A DNA stretch of 64,000 nucleotides from Microbacterium sp. H1-D42 (GTDB lineage: Bacteria > Actinomycetota > Actinomycetes > Actinomycetales > Microbacteriaceae). The first letter of the stretch is position 1; each line of letters begins with the position of its first letter. Location of the stretch: positions 2,604,001-2,668,000 of the forward strand of contig NZ_CP093342.1 in NCBI RefSeq assembly GCF_022637555.1, in the 5' to 3' direction. The notes below the pieces were generated by a model that saw nothing but the letters and a program-made list of their open reading frames with translations, searched no databases and had not been told where the DNA came from. This document shows positions 3,997-51,246 of the stretch, piece after piece. Both the position numbers and the translations under genes were made by a program.

Positions 3997-5721
3997 ATGC
4001 CCACAGTGTCGGCGCACGTCGCTCTCACCCTCGCCCAGCACATCGACCACGTCTTCGGGGTGATGGGCAACGGAAACGCCTATCTGCTCGATGCGCTCGA
4101 GAAGCAGACGGATGCCATGTTCACCGCCGTCCGGCACGAACAGGGCGCCGTGGTCGCCGCAGATGCGCACTTCCGGGCATCCGGCCGCATCGCCGCCGCG
4201 ACCTCGACCTACGGCGCCGGCTTCACGAACACGCTGACGTCGCTCGCAGAGGCCGTGCAGGCGCACGTGCCGCTCGTGCTCGTCGTCGGCGATGAGCCGA
4301 CGTCTGGGCCCCGGCCGTGGGATGTCGATCAGGTCGCGCTGGCCTCGGCCGTCGGCGCCCGCACCTATACGACCGGGCGTGCGGATGCTGCGGCCACCAC
4401 GGTCATCGCCATCGAGCACGCCCTGACCTACCGCGTTCCCGTGGTGCTGGCGATCCCCTACGACGTCGCTGCCCTCGAGGCGGGTCCTGTGCCCGAGGCT
4501 CCGGCCCCGCGGATCTCGGCGCCGCTCGCTCCGCGCGGGGAGTTCGCCGATGGGATGCTGGGCGAGATCGCCGCGGCTCTGGCCGACGCGGAGCGTCCGT
4601 TCCTGTTGGCCGGCCGCGGTGCCTGGCTGGCCGGCGCCGGTGAGGCCCTCGGACAGCTGGCCGATGCCACCGGGGCGCTCACCGCCTCGACGGCGCTCGG
4701 CCGGGGCATCTTCCCCGAGAGCCGCTACGACCTCGGCGTCACAGGCGGCTTCGGCGCCGACGGCGCCATGGAGCTCATCCGGCACGCCGATGTGGCCGTG
4801 GTGTTCGGCGCCTCACTGAACCAGTTCACGATGCGCTTCGGCGAGCTGTTCGCCCCCGGCACCCGCGTGTTCCAGGTCGACGTGGCACCGGCTGCGACCC
4901 ACGCGCACGTGGGCGGCTTCGTCCGCGGGGATGCCCGTGTCGTGGCATCCGACCTCGTTCAGCGCCTCGCATCCGAGCGCTCCGCGCGGGAAAGCGCGCT
5001 TCCCGCGGACGAATCCGCGGAATCCTCCCGCGCGAAGCGCGCATCGCCGCGCGAAGCGCACACCCCGTGGCGCGAAACCGTCGACATCGCTGCCGCGCGC
5101 GTCTACGAACGAGCTGACGAATTCGCCGCCGACGGCCGGCTCGACCCGCGCGCAGCGGCTCGCCTGCTCGCGGAGCTGCTGCCGCAGGACCGCGTGGTCG
5201 TCTCGGACGGCGGGCACTTCATCGGCTGGGCGAACATGTACTGGCCGGTCGCGTCACCTGACCGCATGATGATGATCGGCACGGCGTTCCAGTCGATCGG
5301 GCAGGGCTGGCCGAGCGTGGTCGGCGCGACCCGCGCCCGCCCGGAGTCGACCGTCGTGCTCACCTCTGGCGACGGCGGAGGGCTGATGGCGATCGCCGAC
5401 CTCGAGTCGGCCGTGCGGGCAGCCGCCGGCCACGGCATCGCGGTCATCTGGAACGATGCCGCCTACGGCGCCGAGGTCAATCTGTACGGCCTGAAGGGGC
5501 TGGCCGAGGGCCCCATGCTGATCCCCGAGGTCGATTTCGCGGCGTTCGCCGGCGCGGTGGGCGCAGAAGGCGTGGTCGTGCGGACGCTCGCGGATCTCGA
5601 GCGACTGCGCGAATGGACCGCCGAGCCCGTCGCCGAGCGCCGGTTCCTGGTGCTCGACCTGCGCATCTCCGGAAAGGTGATCGCCCCGTACCAGCAGGAG
5701 ATCATCCGCGTGAACTCCTGA
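3997..5721 (+). CDS. Thiamine-diphosphate-dependent enzyme, acetolactate-synthase-like, substrate unknown
   Basis: A 574-residue three-domain ThDP enzyme. The N-terminal Pyr domain carries the activating Glu in VRHEQGAVVAADAHFRASGR (about residues 42-60). The central domain is Rossmann-like. The C-terminal PP domain has the diphosphate motif starting SGDGGG and ending near WNDAAYG. I chose the ATG at 3997 because AAAGG lies 7-8 nt upstream; an in-frame ATG at 3979 has no ribosome site. Length fits the acetolactate synthase/benzoylformate decarboxylase superfamily. There is no small regulatory subunit nearby, so it is unlikely to be the biosynthetic ilvB. Residues about 330-355 are encoded by a palindrome-rich insert between the central and PP domains. 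Confidence 0.82.
   Translation: MPTVSAHVALTLAQHIDHVFGVMGNGNAYLLDALEKQTDAMFTAVRHEQGAVVAADAHFRASGRIAAATSTYGAGFTNTLTSLAEAVQAHVPLVLVVGDEPTSGPRPWDVDQVALASAVGARTYTTGRADAAATTVIAIEHALTYRVPVVLAIPYDVAALEAGPVPEAPAPRISAPLAPRGEFADGMLGEIAAALADAERPFLLAGRGAWLAGAGEALGQLADATGALTASTALGRGIFPESRYDLGVTGGFGADGAMELIRHADVAVVFGASLNQFTMRFGELFAPGTRVFQVDVAPAATHAHVGGFVRGDARVVASDLVQRLASERSARESALPADESAESSRAKRASPREAHTPWRETVDIAAARVYERADEFAADGRLDPRAAARLLAELLPQDRVVVSDGGHFIGWANMYWPVASPDRMMMIGTAFQSIGQGWPSVVGATRARPESTVVLTSGDGGGLMAIADLESAVRAAAGHGIAVIWNDAAYGAEVNLYGLKGLAEGPMLIPEVDFAAFAGAVGAEGVVVRTLADLERLREWTAEPVAERRFLVLDLRISGKVIAPYQQEIIRVNS
4985..5059. repeat. Palindrome-rich insert inside the ThDP-enzyme gene
   Basis: Three adjacent structures are visible. 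An inverted repeat with arms CGCGGGAA/TTCCCGCG lies at 4985-5007, arms CCGCGGA/TCCGCGG at 5003-5020, and the direct repeat CGCGCGAAGCGC occurs at 5029-5040 and 5048-5059. All keep the reading frame and encode a low-complexity, charged linker rich in Ser, Ala, Arg and Glu between the central and PP domains. It looks like an extragenic palindrome tolerated in a linker. Confidence 0.6.
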
Positions 5722-33389: not shown

Positions 33390-33435
33390 CGCCGAGACCC
33401 CTGGCTGCAGACGTCTGCAGCCAGGGGTCTCGGCG
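33390..33435. terminator. 46-bp perfect palindrome between convergent genes
   Basis: Arms of 23 bp (33390-33412 and 33413-33435, beginning CGCCGAGACCCCTGG) match perfectly with no spacer. A partial copy of the arm, CGCCGAGACCCCC, lies just upstream at 33371. It probably ends both the membrane-protein transcript and the glyA-folD transcript. Confidence 0.7.
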
Positions 33436-48584: not shown

Positions 48585-48609
48585 CGGATCTCCGTTCGCG
48601 AGGGCAATT

Positions 48610-48627
48610 TATCTCGATACCAAGATA
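48610..48627. promoter_or_regulatory. MarR-type operator-like palindrome before icd
   Basis: TATCTCGATACCAAGATA pairs TATCT with AGATA and matches its reverse complement at 14 of 18 positions. It lies 26-43 bp upstream of icd, where the core promoter should be. The AT-rich word stands out in GC-rich DNA. No MarR gene is nearby. Confidence 0.4.
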
Positions 48628-48750
48628 CCTGAGTGCGGCGCGGACCGTTTGCGGCCGTCTTCAGGCACTTCCCTGATGAGTGATACCGCGGTGTATTGCG
48701 CGCGATGTATTCTGCCGATCACATTTTCTCCACCACACACGACTAGGGGC

Positions 48751-48756
48751 TAGCCT
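48751..48756 (+). promoter_or_regulatory. -10 element of a probable leaderless promoter (GNAT gene)
   Basis: TAGCCT, then GGGGTC, then ATG 48763. The layout is identical to that at 40711 and 60311. Confidence 0.55.
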
Positions 48757-48762
48757 GGGGTC

Positions 48763-49221
48763 ATGTCGGAACTGCGCGTGGTCGAACTATCCGCGGCGAC
48801 GATCGTCGCCGTCAACAAGCTGTCACTCAAGCCTGGGCAGGAGCAGTTCCTCGCTCCGGTCTCCTACGGCATCGCCGCCACCGTGGTGAACCCTCAGACC
48901 TCCTGGCAGCGCGTGGTGCTCGACGGCGACCAGGTCGTCGGCTTCGTGAGCGCGAGCTTCGACCCTGAGGCTCTGGAAGAGAACTTCCGCAGCGTGCTCT
49001 GGCGCATCAACGTGGATGCGGACGATCAGGGCCGCGGCATCGGCCGCTTCGCCGTGCAAGCTCTGATCGACGAGGCCCGCGCACGCGGTGTCGATCACGT
49101 GAACGTGATCTATGAAGCCGGCGACGGCGGCCCCGAGGCGTTCTTCCGCCGAGTGGGCTTCGAACCCGTCGGCGAGACCGAGTACTCAGAGGTCATCGCG
49201 CAGATCCGCGTCACGGACTGA
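48763..49221 (+). CDS. GNAT-family N-acetyltransferase
   Basis: A 152-residue acetyltransferase. The acetyl-CoA loop is DADDQGRGIGRFAVQALIDEA (Q/RxxGxG/A form). The N-terminal layout (LKPGQEQFLAPVSYGIA, VGFVSASFDPE) resembles the spermidine/spermine acetyltransferases BltD and PaiA; the substrate is inferred only. No ribosome site is present; the ATG is 6 nt after a -10-like hexamer. Confidence 0.85.
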   Translation: MSELRVVELSAATIVAVNKLSLKPGQEQFLAPVSYGIAATVVNPQTSWQRVVLDGDQVVGFVSASFDPEALEENFRSVLWRINVDADDQGRGIGRFAVQALIDEARARGVDHVNVIYEAGDGGPEAFFRRVGFEPVGETEYSEVIAQIRVTD

Positions 49222-49224
49222 ACC

Positions 49225-49272
49225 GGCGGCGGGGTCTCGAATCCCCTCCCCCATCGAGATCCCGTCGCCGCC
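49225..49272 (+). terminator. Long GC-rich hairpin after the GNAT gene
   Basis: Left arm GGCGGCGGGGTCTCGA (49225-49240) pairs with a right arm ending CCCGTCGCCGCC (49254-49272), with a small bulge, starting 4 bp after the stop. Confidence 0.55.
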
Positions 49273-49289
49273 TGCCCGACTGACGAATC

Positions 49290-49354
49290 CAGGACGGTTC
49301 CACTTTCACAGGACGATCTGGCCGCCAGCATCCTGTGAAGTTGCAATCGTCCTG
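49290..49354. repeat. Palindromic repeat, copy 1, upstream of the DUF559 gene
   Basis: Arms of 26 nt (49290-49315, starting CAGGACGG, and 49329-49354, ending ATCGTCCTG) match at 21 of 26 positions around a 13-nt loop (ATCTGGCCGCCAG). Copy 2 at 50370 matches it at 51 of 65 positions by my count. GAATCC precedes both copies. Further fragments (CATCCTGCACAATCC, 49373-49387) continue towards the gene. Confidence 0.8.
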
Positions 49355-49462
49355 CGCAATTGCGGCGGCACTCATCCTGCACAATCCACGCGAACCGGAT
49401 TCTCTCCACAGATCGTGTGATTCGGACCTCGAGCACGCCCGGTGCTGCACGACGCTGACCGG

Positions 49463-50335
49463 ATGAGACTGACGACCTGGCTCGCAGAGCGCGACGGCAT
49501 CGGCCATCGCGATGACGCGTCGGATGCTGGATTCACACCTTCGCATGTGCGCGCGGCGATCCGGTCCGGCAGTGTTCGCCGCATTCGCGCGAAGTGGATC
49601 GCACTCGACTCGGCTGCCCCGGAGCTCGTCACTGCGGCATTCGCGGGTGGTGCGCTGACGTGCACGACCCTGGCGCGACGACGTGGGTGGTGGGTGCCGC
49701 CCAGTGTGACTGAGAAGTCCACGGGTGAGAAGCCGAGCACGGTCGAGAAGGTGCACCTGCACCTGCCCGTCCACGAGTCGCTGCGGGCGGATGACGTCAC
49801 CGCGCACTGGGCGAAGCCACTCGCGCCTCGGCATCCGCGCACGTTGGAGGCGTCGGTCGAGGATGCCTTATCCGATGCTGCGCAGTGCTTCGAAATCGAT
49901 CAGGCCGTCGCGATCTGGGAATCGGCGATCCGCACGAACTCGACGACCCTGGAGTCGCTACGCAGTGTTCGCTGGCGCTCCGCCGCGGCCCGGCGATGTC
50001 TGCTGCATGTGCGACCGGGAACGGACTCGTCGCTGGAGACCGTGTTCCACGTGCGGCTGAGCGCGTGGGGCGTGCGACTGCGCCTCCAGGTGCAGCTCGC
50101 AGGGCATCCGGTCGACTTTCTCATCGGCACCCACCTGGTCGTGCAGATAGACGGGTGGAGCTTTCATTCCTCCTCCGCCGACCGCACCCGCGACCTCGCC
50201 CACGACGCCGAGCTGAGGATGCGCGGGTACACCGTGCTGCGCTTCTCGTACTCGCAGGTGATGTTCAATTGGGAGCATGTCGAGCATGTGCTCGCGTCGG
50301 CGATCAGCCGCGGACTGCACCTCGCAGCGGCGTAA
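49463..50335 (+). CDS. DUF559 endonuclease-like protein with N-terminal AbiEi-like winged helix
   Basis: A 290-residue protein. Residues about 1-65 look like an AbiEi-type winged helix (MRLTTWLAERDGIGHRDDASDAG, HVRAAIRSGSVRRIRAKWIAL). The C-terminal 100 residues fit DUF559, a Vsr/PD-(D/E)XK-like fold: SLETVFHVRLSAWGV, GHPVDFLIG, LVVQIDGWSFHSS, HDAELRMRGYTVLRFSY. At the third acidic position (E-x-D in many relatives) this protein has Gln (VVQID). The ATG at 49463 begins with the conserved domain; GTG 49442 is the alternative. Related palindromes lie on both sides of the gene. No partner gene is adjacent. Confidence 0.83.
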   Translation: MRLTTWLAERDGIGHRDDASDAGFTPSHVRAAIRSGSVRRIRAKWIALDSAAPELVTAAFAGGALTCTTLARRRGWWVPPSVTEKSTGEKPSTVEKVHLHLPVHESLRADDVTAHWAKPLAPRHPRTLEASVEDALSDAAQCFEIDQAVAIWESAIRTNSTTLESLRSVRWRSAAARRCLLHVRPGTDSSLETVFHVRLSAWGVRLRLQVQLAGHPVDFLIGTHLVVQIDGWSFHSSSADRTRDLAHDAELRMRGYTVLRFSYSQVMFNWEHVEHVLASAISRGLHLAAA

Positions 50336-50369
50336 CGCCGCGTCGGACGACCCCTGCAGCTCAAGAATC

Positions 50370-50434
50370 CAGGACGATTGAAATTCCACAGGATGATCCG
50401 GCGTCCAGCATCCTATGGAATTGAATTCGTCCTG
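50370..50434. repeat. Palindromic repeat, copy 2, downstream of the DUF559 gene
   Basis: The layout is identical to copy 1: arms 50370-50395 and 50409-50434 (21 of 26 paired) and a 13-nt loop ATCCGGCGTCCAG. It is in the same orientation as copy 1, so the gene lies between direct repeats of a palindrome. Confidence 0.8.
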
Positions 50435-50457
50435 TGAAGCTGAGGGCCGCAACCGCG

Positions 50458-51246
50458 TCAGCGGTCGTCGCCCTTGCGACGCCCCCACGAACCCAGCACA
50501 TCCGAGGTGCGGTCCAGCACCTCTGTGGTGCGCTCCATCAGGTTGCGCGCCGCGTCGCGCAGCGCTTCCGGCACCTCAGCGGCCGTGCGCGCGTCGCCGC
50601 GCACGCGGCGCTCGGCGATGTCGAAGGCTCGCTCGAGCCGTTCGACGGCGTCGCGGTACTCGCCGTAGTCGGATGCTGTAATCCGCGCGCCCTCGTCGTT
50701 CGGACGCCGATCTCGGGCGACCTGCACGGTGGCGAGGAACTCCGCCGTCGTCGGGATGCGGGCATCGCTCATCTCGGGGAACGCCAGGGCCTTCACGGGA
50801 TCGGTCTCGTACTCCATCCACCGCGCCAGGATGGCGTCATGGCGGGCGCGCAGCTTCGCCAGGGGCGGCTCACCGCCGACCGTCAGCGCCGTGCGCTCGG
50901 CCGAAAGTCGCGCCCGCGCCGCCTTCACCCTGGCGTTGCCCGCCTTCGCCGCGAGCTGCGCCTCGCGCAGGGCGCGCCGCGCGGCCGCAACGGCACCCGT
51001 GTCCGTCCGTCCGGCCGCGCGCTCTGCACCGACCCGCGTCGCCTCTGCGCGGGCGATGCGGGCGTTGTCGGCGGCGATCCTCGATTCCTGCTGAGCGCGG
51101 CGCAGCTCGAGCCGCGCCGCGTCATAGCCGAGCCGCTTGCCACTCACTTGATGCCTCCGCTTCGCGACGAAGCCGACCGCCGCACCGCCGATGACGACAG
51201 GGGTGATCCACCACACTTCGGCTGCCATCGCCCAGAACGGATCCAC
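50458..51246 (-). CDS. Membrane-anchored coiled-coil protein, function unknown
   Basis: A 262-residue protein. One N-terminal TM helix (VWWITPVVIGGAAVGFVA) is followed by a long Ala/Arg/Glu-rich helical stretch (about residues 30-130), likely coiled coil. A C-terminal part includes HDAILARWMEYETDPVKALAFPEMSDARIPT. I do not recognise the family. GTG 51246 is 6 nt after TAGGTT; GAAGG overlaps that spacer, so both leaderless and SD-led starts are possible. It lies 81 bp after the ABC exporter operon on the same strand. Confidence 0.72.
   Translation of the reverse strand: MDPFWAMAAEVWWITPVVIGGAAVGFVAKRRHQVSGKRLGYDAARLELRRAQQESRIAADNARIARAEATRVGAERAAGRTDTGAVAAARRALREAQLAAKAGNARVKAARARLSAERTALTVGGEPPLAKLRARHDAILARWMEYETDPVKALAFPEMSDARIPTTAEFLATVQVARDRRPNDEGARITASDYGEYRDAVERLERAFDIAERRVRGDARTAAEVPEALRDAARNLMERTTEVLDRTSDVLGSWGRRKGDDR

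Follow-up and report, generated by a model that had tools for sequence, protein, structure and literature searches.

A DUF559 nuclease gene flanked by matching palindromes in Microbacterium: a candidate counterpart of REP/RAYT systems

Introduction

The genome of Microbacterium sp. H1-D42 carries, in a stretch of 64,000 nucleotides (contig NZ_CP093342.1, positions 2,604,001 to 2,668,000; the window), a DUF559 gene between two copies of a large palindrome. What connects a nuclease-like gene with the repeats at both of its sides? An initial annotation of the window correctly found this gene alone between the palindromes, and offered two answers. The repeats could form a nuclease-linked family analogous to the repetitive extragenic palindromes (REPs) and their RAYT transposases, or the whole 1.15-kb unit could be a homing-type element. 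Comparison of the locus with its relatives leads us to favor, with a probability of about 0.62, a two-part system in which a gene that stays in place encodes an AbiEi-like/Vsr-like nuclease, and a matching palindrome family is bound, cut and copied.

Results

Palindromes flank DUF559 genes across the genus

The flanked gene of the window is one case of a general arrangement in Microbacterium. A search of 59 genomes of the genus returned 140 DUF559 matches at 1e-20. The 89 that were examined (mostly better-scoring, hand-picked by place) and one weaker paralogue from the window's own genome make 90 loci; L069 (same place as L151) and L086 (short flank) were left out before the counts, which refer to 89 genus loci. 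Here and below, G numbers denote the genomes compared and L numbers the fetched loci. Palindromes were located with a finder that is blind to repeat sequence, at a strict setting (score 15, span 50) and a loose one; the finder and the gene caller are custom-made and crude. Within 300 bp of the gene, strict palindromes were observed upstream at 23 loci, downstream at 44, on both sides at 17 and on either side at 50. Elsewhere around these loci, 8 were present in 327 kb, and none in 73.5 kb of gene interiors. The strict density in intergenic DNA is 68 per 48.1 kb near DUF559 genes versus 5 per 87.9 kb away from them, and 134 versus 11 in the same DNA at the loose setting. A separate collection of named loci, which partly overlaps with the first (77 of 80 used, three having been dropped for short flanks), gave 24 upstream, 38 downstream and 43 either-side palindromes at the strict setting, with 8 elsewhere in 543 kb; the loose values are 42, 49 and 61, with 32 elsewhere. 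Beside control genes, strict palindromes occur downstream in 2 of 28 cases and upstream in 0 of 28 (Fisher 3.8e-5 and 0.0018), and loose palindromes in 3 and 1 of 28, respectively. Because this control sample is small, weight is placed on the intergenic density. The check proposed with the initial annotation, whether hairpins cluster around DUF559 homologues, is thus answered: many homologues are flanked, far above background. The median palindrome lies ~119 bp before the start codon or 16 bp after the stop codon. In Leucobacter, strict flanking palindromes were found in three of five loci and none in the other two.

The palindromes match each other and the protein

The palindromes share a layout with different letters. 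A word of five or more bases is repeated in the left arm at exactly 18 or 19 bp in 92 of 125 palindromes (9 expected), and only these two lags stand out among the lags of 8 to 30 bp that were tested. The motif letters differ among subfamilies. The lag is identical upstream and downstream in all 27 loci compared. It also tracks the protein tree, with 8 changes over 65 loci, compared with ~21.8 in shuffles (0 of 500 shuffles were as low). We regard these two properties of the lag as the strongest indication that the palindrome is read by the protein. The upstream and downstream palindromes of one locus align with a median score of 68 (48 loci), compared with 17 between loci, and palindrome likeness increases with protein identity. 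In 35 of 41 pairs of orthologous loci, the upstream and downstream palindromes within a genome are closer to each other than to their counterparts in the other genome (median 78 versus 31); the pairs are not independent, and some loci are counted twice (e.g. L151/L208 and L123/L267).

Covariation between the arms is absent in the two families analyzed (paired 82.4% versus 82.0% in shuffles, and 86.9 versus 88.0), and for this reason the hairpin is not claimed as a conserved form. Conservation is found in the boxes, which suits double-stranded binding, although a hairpin form is compatible with this pattern as well.

Close homologues of the gene stay in place and the palindromes are dispersed

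At the site syntenic to that of the window, the palindrome-gene-palindrome arrangement is full in the own genome, G042, G068, G300 and G284. A solo palindrome occupies the site in G091 and G092, with a left flank as that of the first palindrome and a right flank as that of the second. G307 retains a decayed single palindrome; G310, G030 and G033 have no palindrome, and G218 and G036 also lack both gene and palindrome. The strains without the ~1.15-kb unit that the initial annotation proposed to look for therefore exist, as empty and as solo-palindrome sites. In flank trees, the own genome is sister to the solo pair, so the solo state is possibly a loss. G307 has neither of two scattered copies of the own genome at the corresponding orthologous positions; among 14 genomes, it alone could be aligned across both flanks for each of these copies.

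The right flank of the G092 solo palindrome continues in the very close genome G091 with 97% identity (L317, G092:C1:118260; L341 7546). The left flank of that palindrome was not found next to it there; judged by eye, it sits at L289, where it adjoins half a palindrome next to a different gene. A rearrangement with its breakpoint at the palindrome is possible; with the left flank rearranged, G091 and G092 give no clean solo/empty comparison.

Of 109 homologue pairs with an identity of 70% or more (pairs non-independent), 107 have one or both flanks in common, and this comparison gave no sign that close homologues move to new places. No common flank was seen for 139 of 259 pairs at 60-70% identity, nor for most pairs below 60%. 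For close homologues, mobility of the whole unit, as in the homing-type proposal, is not supported by these counts.

Dispersed palindromes were searched with R1, a covariance model of the window's palindrome built from 12 copies in the own genome (3.66 Mb). R1 finds 14 places in this genome; two flank the gene, and the other 12 are not near its three distant DUF559 paralogues (L026, L027 and L028; 46%, 32% and 29% identity). The initial annotation had counted frequent hairpins away from DUF559 genes together with a lack of empty sites, or else a lack of flanked homologues, against its own proposal; 12 further copies do lie apart from the four DUF559 genes found, but empty and solo sites and flanked homologues all exist. 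The family of G028 has 14 places in that genome, three of them beside the gene, and related families are present in 11 other genomes. G011 has six places, two beside its gene, and its family is absent from 58 other genomes at 1e-4. The scattered copies in G028 and G011 were found via likeness to a flank copy, so their motif match is partly circular. CTGAAGGA boxes are present in the palindromes flanking the G042 orthologue and likewise in all five other copies of that genome, which were found with the model of the own genome and yet differ from it in motif: none of the own genome's 12 aligned copies has such boxes. According to crude gene calls, 29 places in three genomes comprise 22 that are intergenic, one that is overlapping and six inside predicted open reading frames (ORFs); 11 of the intergenic places lie between convergent, eight between tandem and three between divergent genes. 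One copy (L032 2989; G000:C1:2544938) is located inside a predicted ORF of 1152 amino acids.

In G019 (L150 2036-2413, G019:C48), three palindromes form a direct tandem with ~152 bp spacing and similar spacers, like REP clusters; no DUF559 match was found in that 4.4-kb stretch. Among 17 close genomes, R1 copies number 14, 13, 11, 7 and 3 in the five genomes that carry the gene at the site, and 3, 4, 4, 4, 0, 0, 0, 0, 6, 0, 2 and 1 in the 12 genomes where it is not (Mann-Whitney p 0.007, or 0.019 without the own genome). This comparison is uncorrected for phylogeny, uses a model built from the own genome's copies and, for most of these genomes, scores the gene at the studied site alone.

The window locus and the DUF559 protein

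The locus comprises a GNAT acetyltransferase gene, the first palindrome, the DUF559 gene, the second palindrome and a convergent gene with no Pfam match (Table 1). The 65-nt cores start exactly 1080 bp apart in the same orientation and are identical at 51 of 65 bases, as initially annotated; the 13-nt loop ascribed to both was found only in the second, the first having 17 nt in the ungapped reading. The arms pair at 21 (upstream) and 22 (downstream) of 26 positions, and the likeness of the two palindromes reaches 86 nt at 76%. Both fold as DNA better than shuffled sequences (z -3.63 and -4.33). The downstream core is 35 bp past the DUF559 stop codon. The stem behind the GNAT gene is conserved in filled, solo and empty relatives, and the variable unit begins directly after it: flank similarity stops at 49271 or 49272 in most aligned relatives. 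An Rfam scan of 48600-51200 gave only one weak match, far under the gathering score.

Table 1. Features of the window locus (window coordinates).
Feature	Position	Strand	Evidence and remarks
Terminator-like stem	49224..49270	+	Palindrome finder; behind the GNAT gene; context, outside the system
Upstream palindrome	49280..49365 (core 49290-49354)	+	R1, 91.3 bits; two CAGGA-type boxes in each arm, 19 bp apart
DUF559 gene	49442..50335	+	Pfam, fold comparison, conserved residues; likely start ATG 49463
Downstream palindrome	50360..50445 (core 50370-50434)	+	R1, 94.7 bits; same family and orientation

The protein has 290-297 residues; an alignment of homologues prefers the ATG start to the GTG at 49442. 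Residues 5-191 resemble the AbiEi antitoxin, and residues 193-295 a Vsr / I-Bth0305I-like nuclease domain, the closest match of which is a homing endonuclease. Pfam matched DUF559 (8.2e-9, above the cut-off), the MTES_1575 restriction endonuclease (8.9e-9, just below it) and AbiEi, with no Y1_Tnp among the rows; the NCBIfam scan gave no match, and PADLOC gave weak matches to AbiEi and homing-endonuclease models (best E 0.0018). Across 52 sequences, Asp225 is conserved in 52, Glu199 in 51 and Gln235 in 50 (Glu in two), in line with a predicted Vsr-like catalytic fold bearing conserved acidic residues. Assignment of recognition to the winged helix-turn-helix was given up, as a domain-by-domain Mantel analysis yielded no single best-predicting domain. 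The Y1 transposase model PF01797 has no match in the whole own genome (5 of 14 control genomes were positive). No AbiEii toxin gene is among the three neighbors scanned, which encode the GNAT acetyltransferase, the protein with no Pfam match and an ABC transporter. The own genome contains no near-identical second copy of the gene. A phylum-wide search at 1e-12 matched, besides the own genome, one of 118 others (G373, two matches).

Two of the three distant paralogues have a weak upstream palindrome of different sequence. Two further large palindromes are present in the window at 4977-5059 (score 19.5), with no match in the fetched loci, and at 33390-33435 (score 21), whose 21-bp arms are perfect and enclose a 4-nt loop.

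Discussion

The genomic comparison favors the two-part system through the flanking of the genes, the match in motif and spacing, the dispersal of the copies, the empty, solo and full alleles and the concerted change of palindrome pairs. The nuclease-linked family proposed initially is supported by the flanking far above background and from the empty and solo sites. A typical site would consist of a 5-9 bp motif that occurs twice per arm, 18 or 19 bp apart, mirrored about a short center. A dimer or tetramer of the protein would most likely bind these boxes on double-stranded DNA, and the nuclease domain may cut there or close by. As the break is repaired or copied, new palindromes could arise elsewhere, mostly between genes, and the two gene-flanking palindromes would be kept alike. 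After gene loss, orphan palindromes would stay and then decay. The role of the nuclease as the copier of the palindromes is what we infer from these sequences.

Several observations weigh against this proposal. No strict palindrome is present on either side of 39 of the 89 genus loci or beside L026, L027 and L028. Concerted change was found in 0 of 5 orthologous pairs at 89% identity or above, and the Mantel correlations with motif similarity (rho 0.20 for the winged helix-turn-helix and 0.25 for the nuclease domain) do not discriminate between the domains. Genomes with the gene at the site have 3-14 copies, a low number for such repeats; REPs amount to tens to over a thousand per genome, according to the available text of PMC3686654. 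Conversely, G251 has six R1 places with no gene at the site, and G033 has four, at least two of the CTGAAGGA type (L041 and L064), with no gene at the syntenic site; these CTGAAGGA-type palindromes are perhaps orphans. The empty-site relatives are ~79-86% identical in the flanks, and neither a target duplication nor the exact insertion point is readable. The pairs at 60-70% identity that share no flank make older relocation of the gene possible.

The main rival, which we regard as unlikely, is that the protein is a DNA-binding regulator with a secondary nuclease fold and that the scattered palindromes are operators or terminators; ordinary regulator-operator turnover would then account for the joint change of protein and motif. 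The AbiEi-like N-terminal part fits this view, as does the binding of AbiEi to palindromes in its own promoter that is reported in the available part of PMC11062541. Absence of covariation is expected of a double-stranded operator, and 22 of the 29 places are intergenic. However, these places, mostly convergent or tandem, are mostly wrong for operators, and neither the triple array in G019, nor the two copies absent at the orthologous site in G307, nor the conservation of the nuclease residues is in keeping with a regulator. Homing or transposition of the entire palindrome-gene-palindrome unit between sites is disfavored and appears quite improbable: the three kinds of allele at one site, the closeness of the nuclease domain to a homing endonuclease and the unshared flanks at 60-70% identity argue for it, but close homologues nearly always share at least one flank and the own genome has no near-identical second gene copy.

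Movement in trans is common among mobile palindromic repeats, and another agent might spread these palindromes while DUF559 genes merely occupy preferred insertion places. We consider this very improbable, since the 18/19-bp geometry tracks the DUF559 tree, the G011 family is confined to G011 among 59 genomes, and the own genome has no Y1 transposase match (other transposases were not searched). The least probable alternative, to which we give hardly any credence, is a defense or addiction module in which DNA is the target of the nuclease and the palindromes serve as marks of self or as control elements for the enzyme. The Vsr-like restriction endonuclease of MTES_1575 type is described among conflict and defense proteins in the available text of PMC3710099, and the PADLOC models matched point the same way; these matches are weak, however, no toxin partner is among the three neighbors scanned, and the gene is missing from this site in several relatives.

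The open-access papers searched yielded no description of such a DUF559-palindrome system. If the two-part system is real, it would be a second, convergent answer to the question of how short palindromes are kept up as a population by a gene on the chromosome. It would also give context to one clade of DUF559 proteins, a family of unknown function, and its dozens of naturally occurring pairs of protein and motif, whose spacing obeys a legible rule, would be good material on how the DNA specificity of a nuclease changes.

Comparison with known systems

In contrast to I-Bth0305I and other Vsr-like homing endonucleases, the DUF559 gene was not seen in an intron or intein, its close homologues stay put, and the protein has an additional AbiEi-like DNA-binding part and dispersed palindromes. 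It differs from the AbiEi antitoxin of the type IV toxin-antitoxin system AbiE by its fusion to a nuclease and by the absence of AbiEii from the three neighbors scanned. TnsA of Tn7 is also counted among the closest known systems.

RAYT/REP systems involve a single-stranded hairpin with a GTAG/GGAG foot. The DUF559 system, by contrast, has no Y1/HUH transposase; its nuclease combines the PD-(D/E)XK/Vsr fold with the AbiEi-like part, and its palindromes have boxes at 18/19 bp, no arm covariation, 3-14 copies and an actinobacterial host. As the defining transposase is missing and the enzyme is of another superfamily, the system would be of a new, convergent kind. We see an even chance that its lifestyle is REP/RAYT-like in full, that is, that it arose independently with an unrelated enzyme, the AbiEi-Vsr nuclease, which reads a four-box palindrome in double-stranded form, spreads it by cut-and-repair copying and has switched motif again and again, jointly with the flanks and the genome copies. 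Flanking palindromes of the cognate class were found at the strict setting in 50 of 89 genus and 43 of 77 named loci, and the gene is in place with its repeats dispersed (with 70% identity or above, 107 of 109 pairs have a flank in common; at 60-70%, 139 of 259 have none). Stationary, distinctive gene copies flanked by palindromes are likewise a feature of REP/RAYT systems in the available portions of PMC3116915, PMC8049555 and PMC3686654, together with repeat classes that match the gene and spread between genes, occasional tandem clusters and orphans after gene loss. The concerted change of the flanking palindromes observed here resembles the RAYT/REP 'orthoswitch', a change of flanking class at orthologous genes that the available text of PMC3686654 describes.
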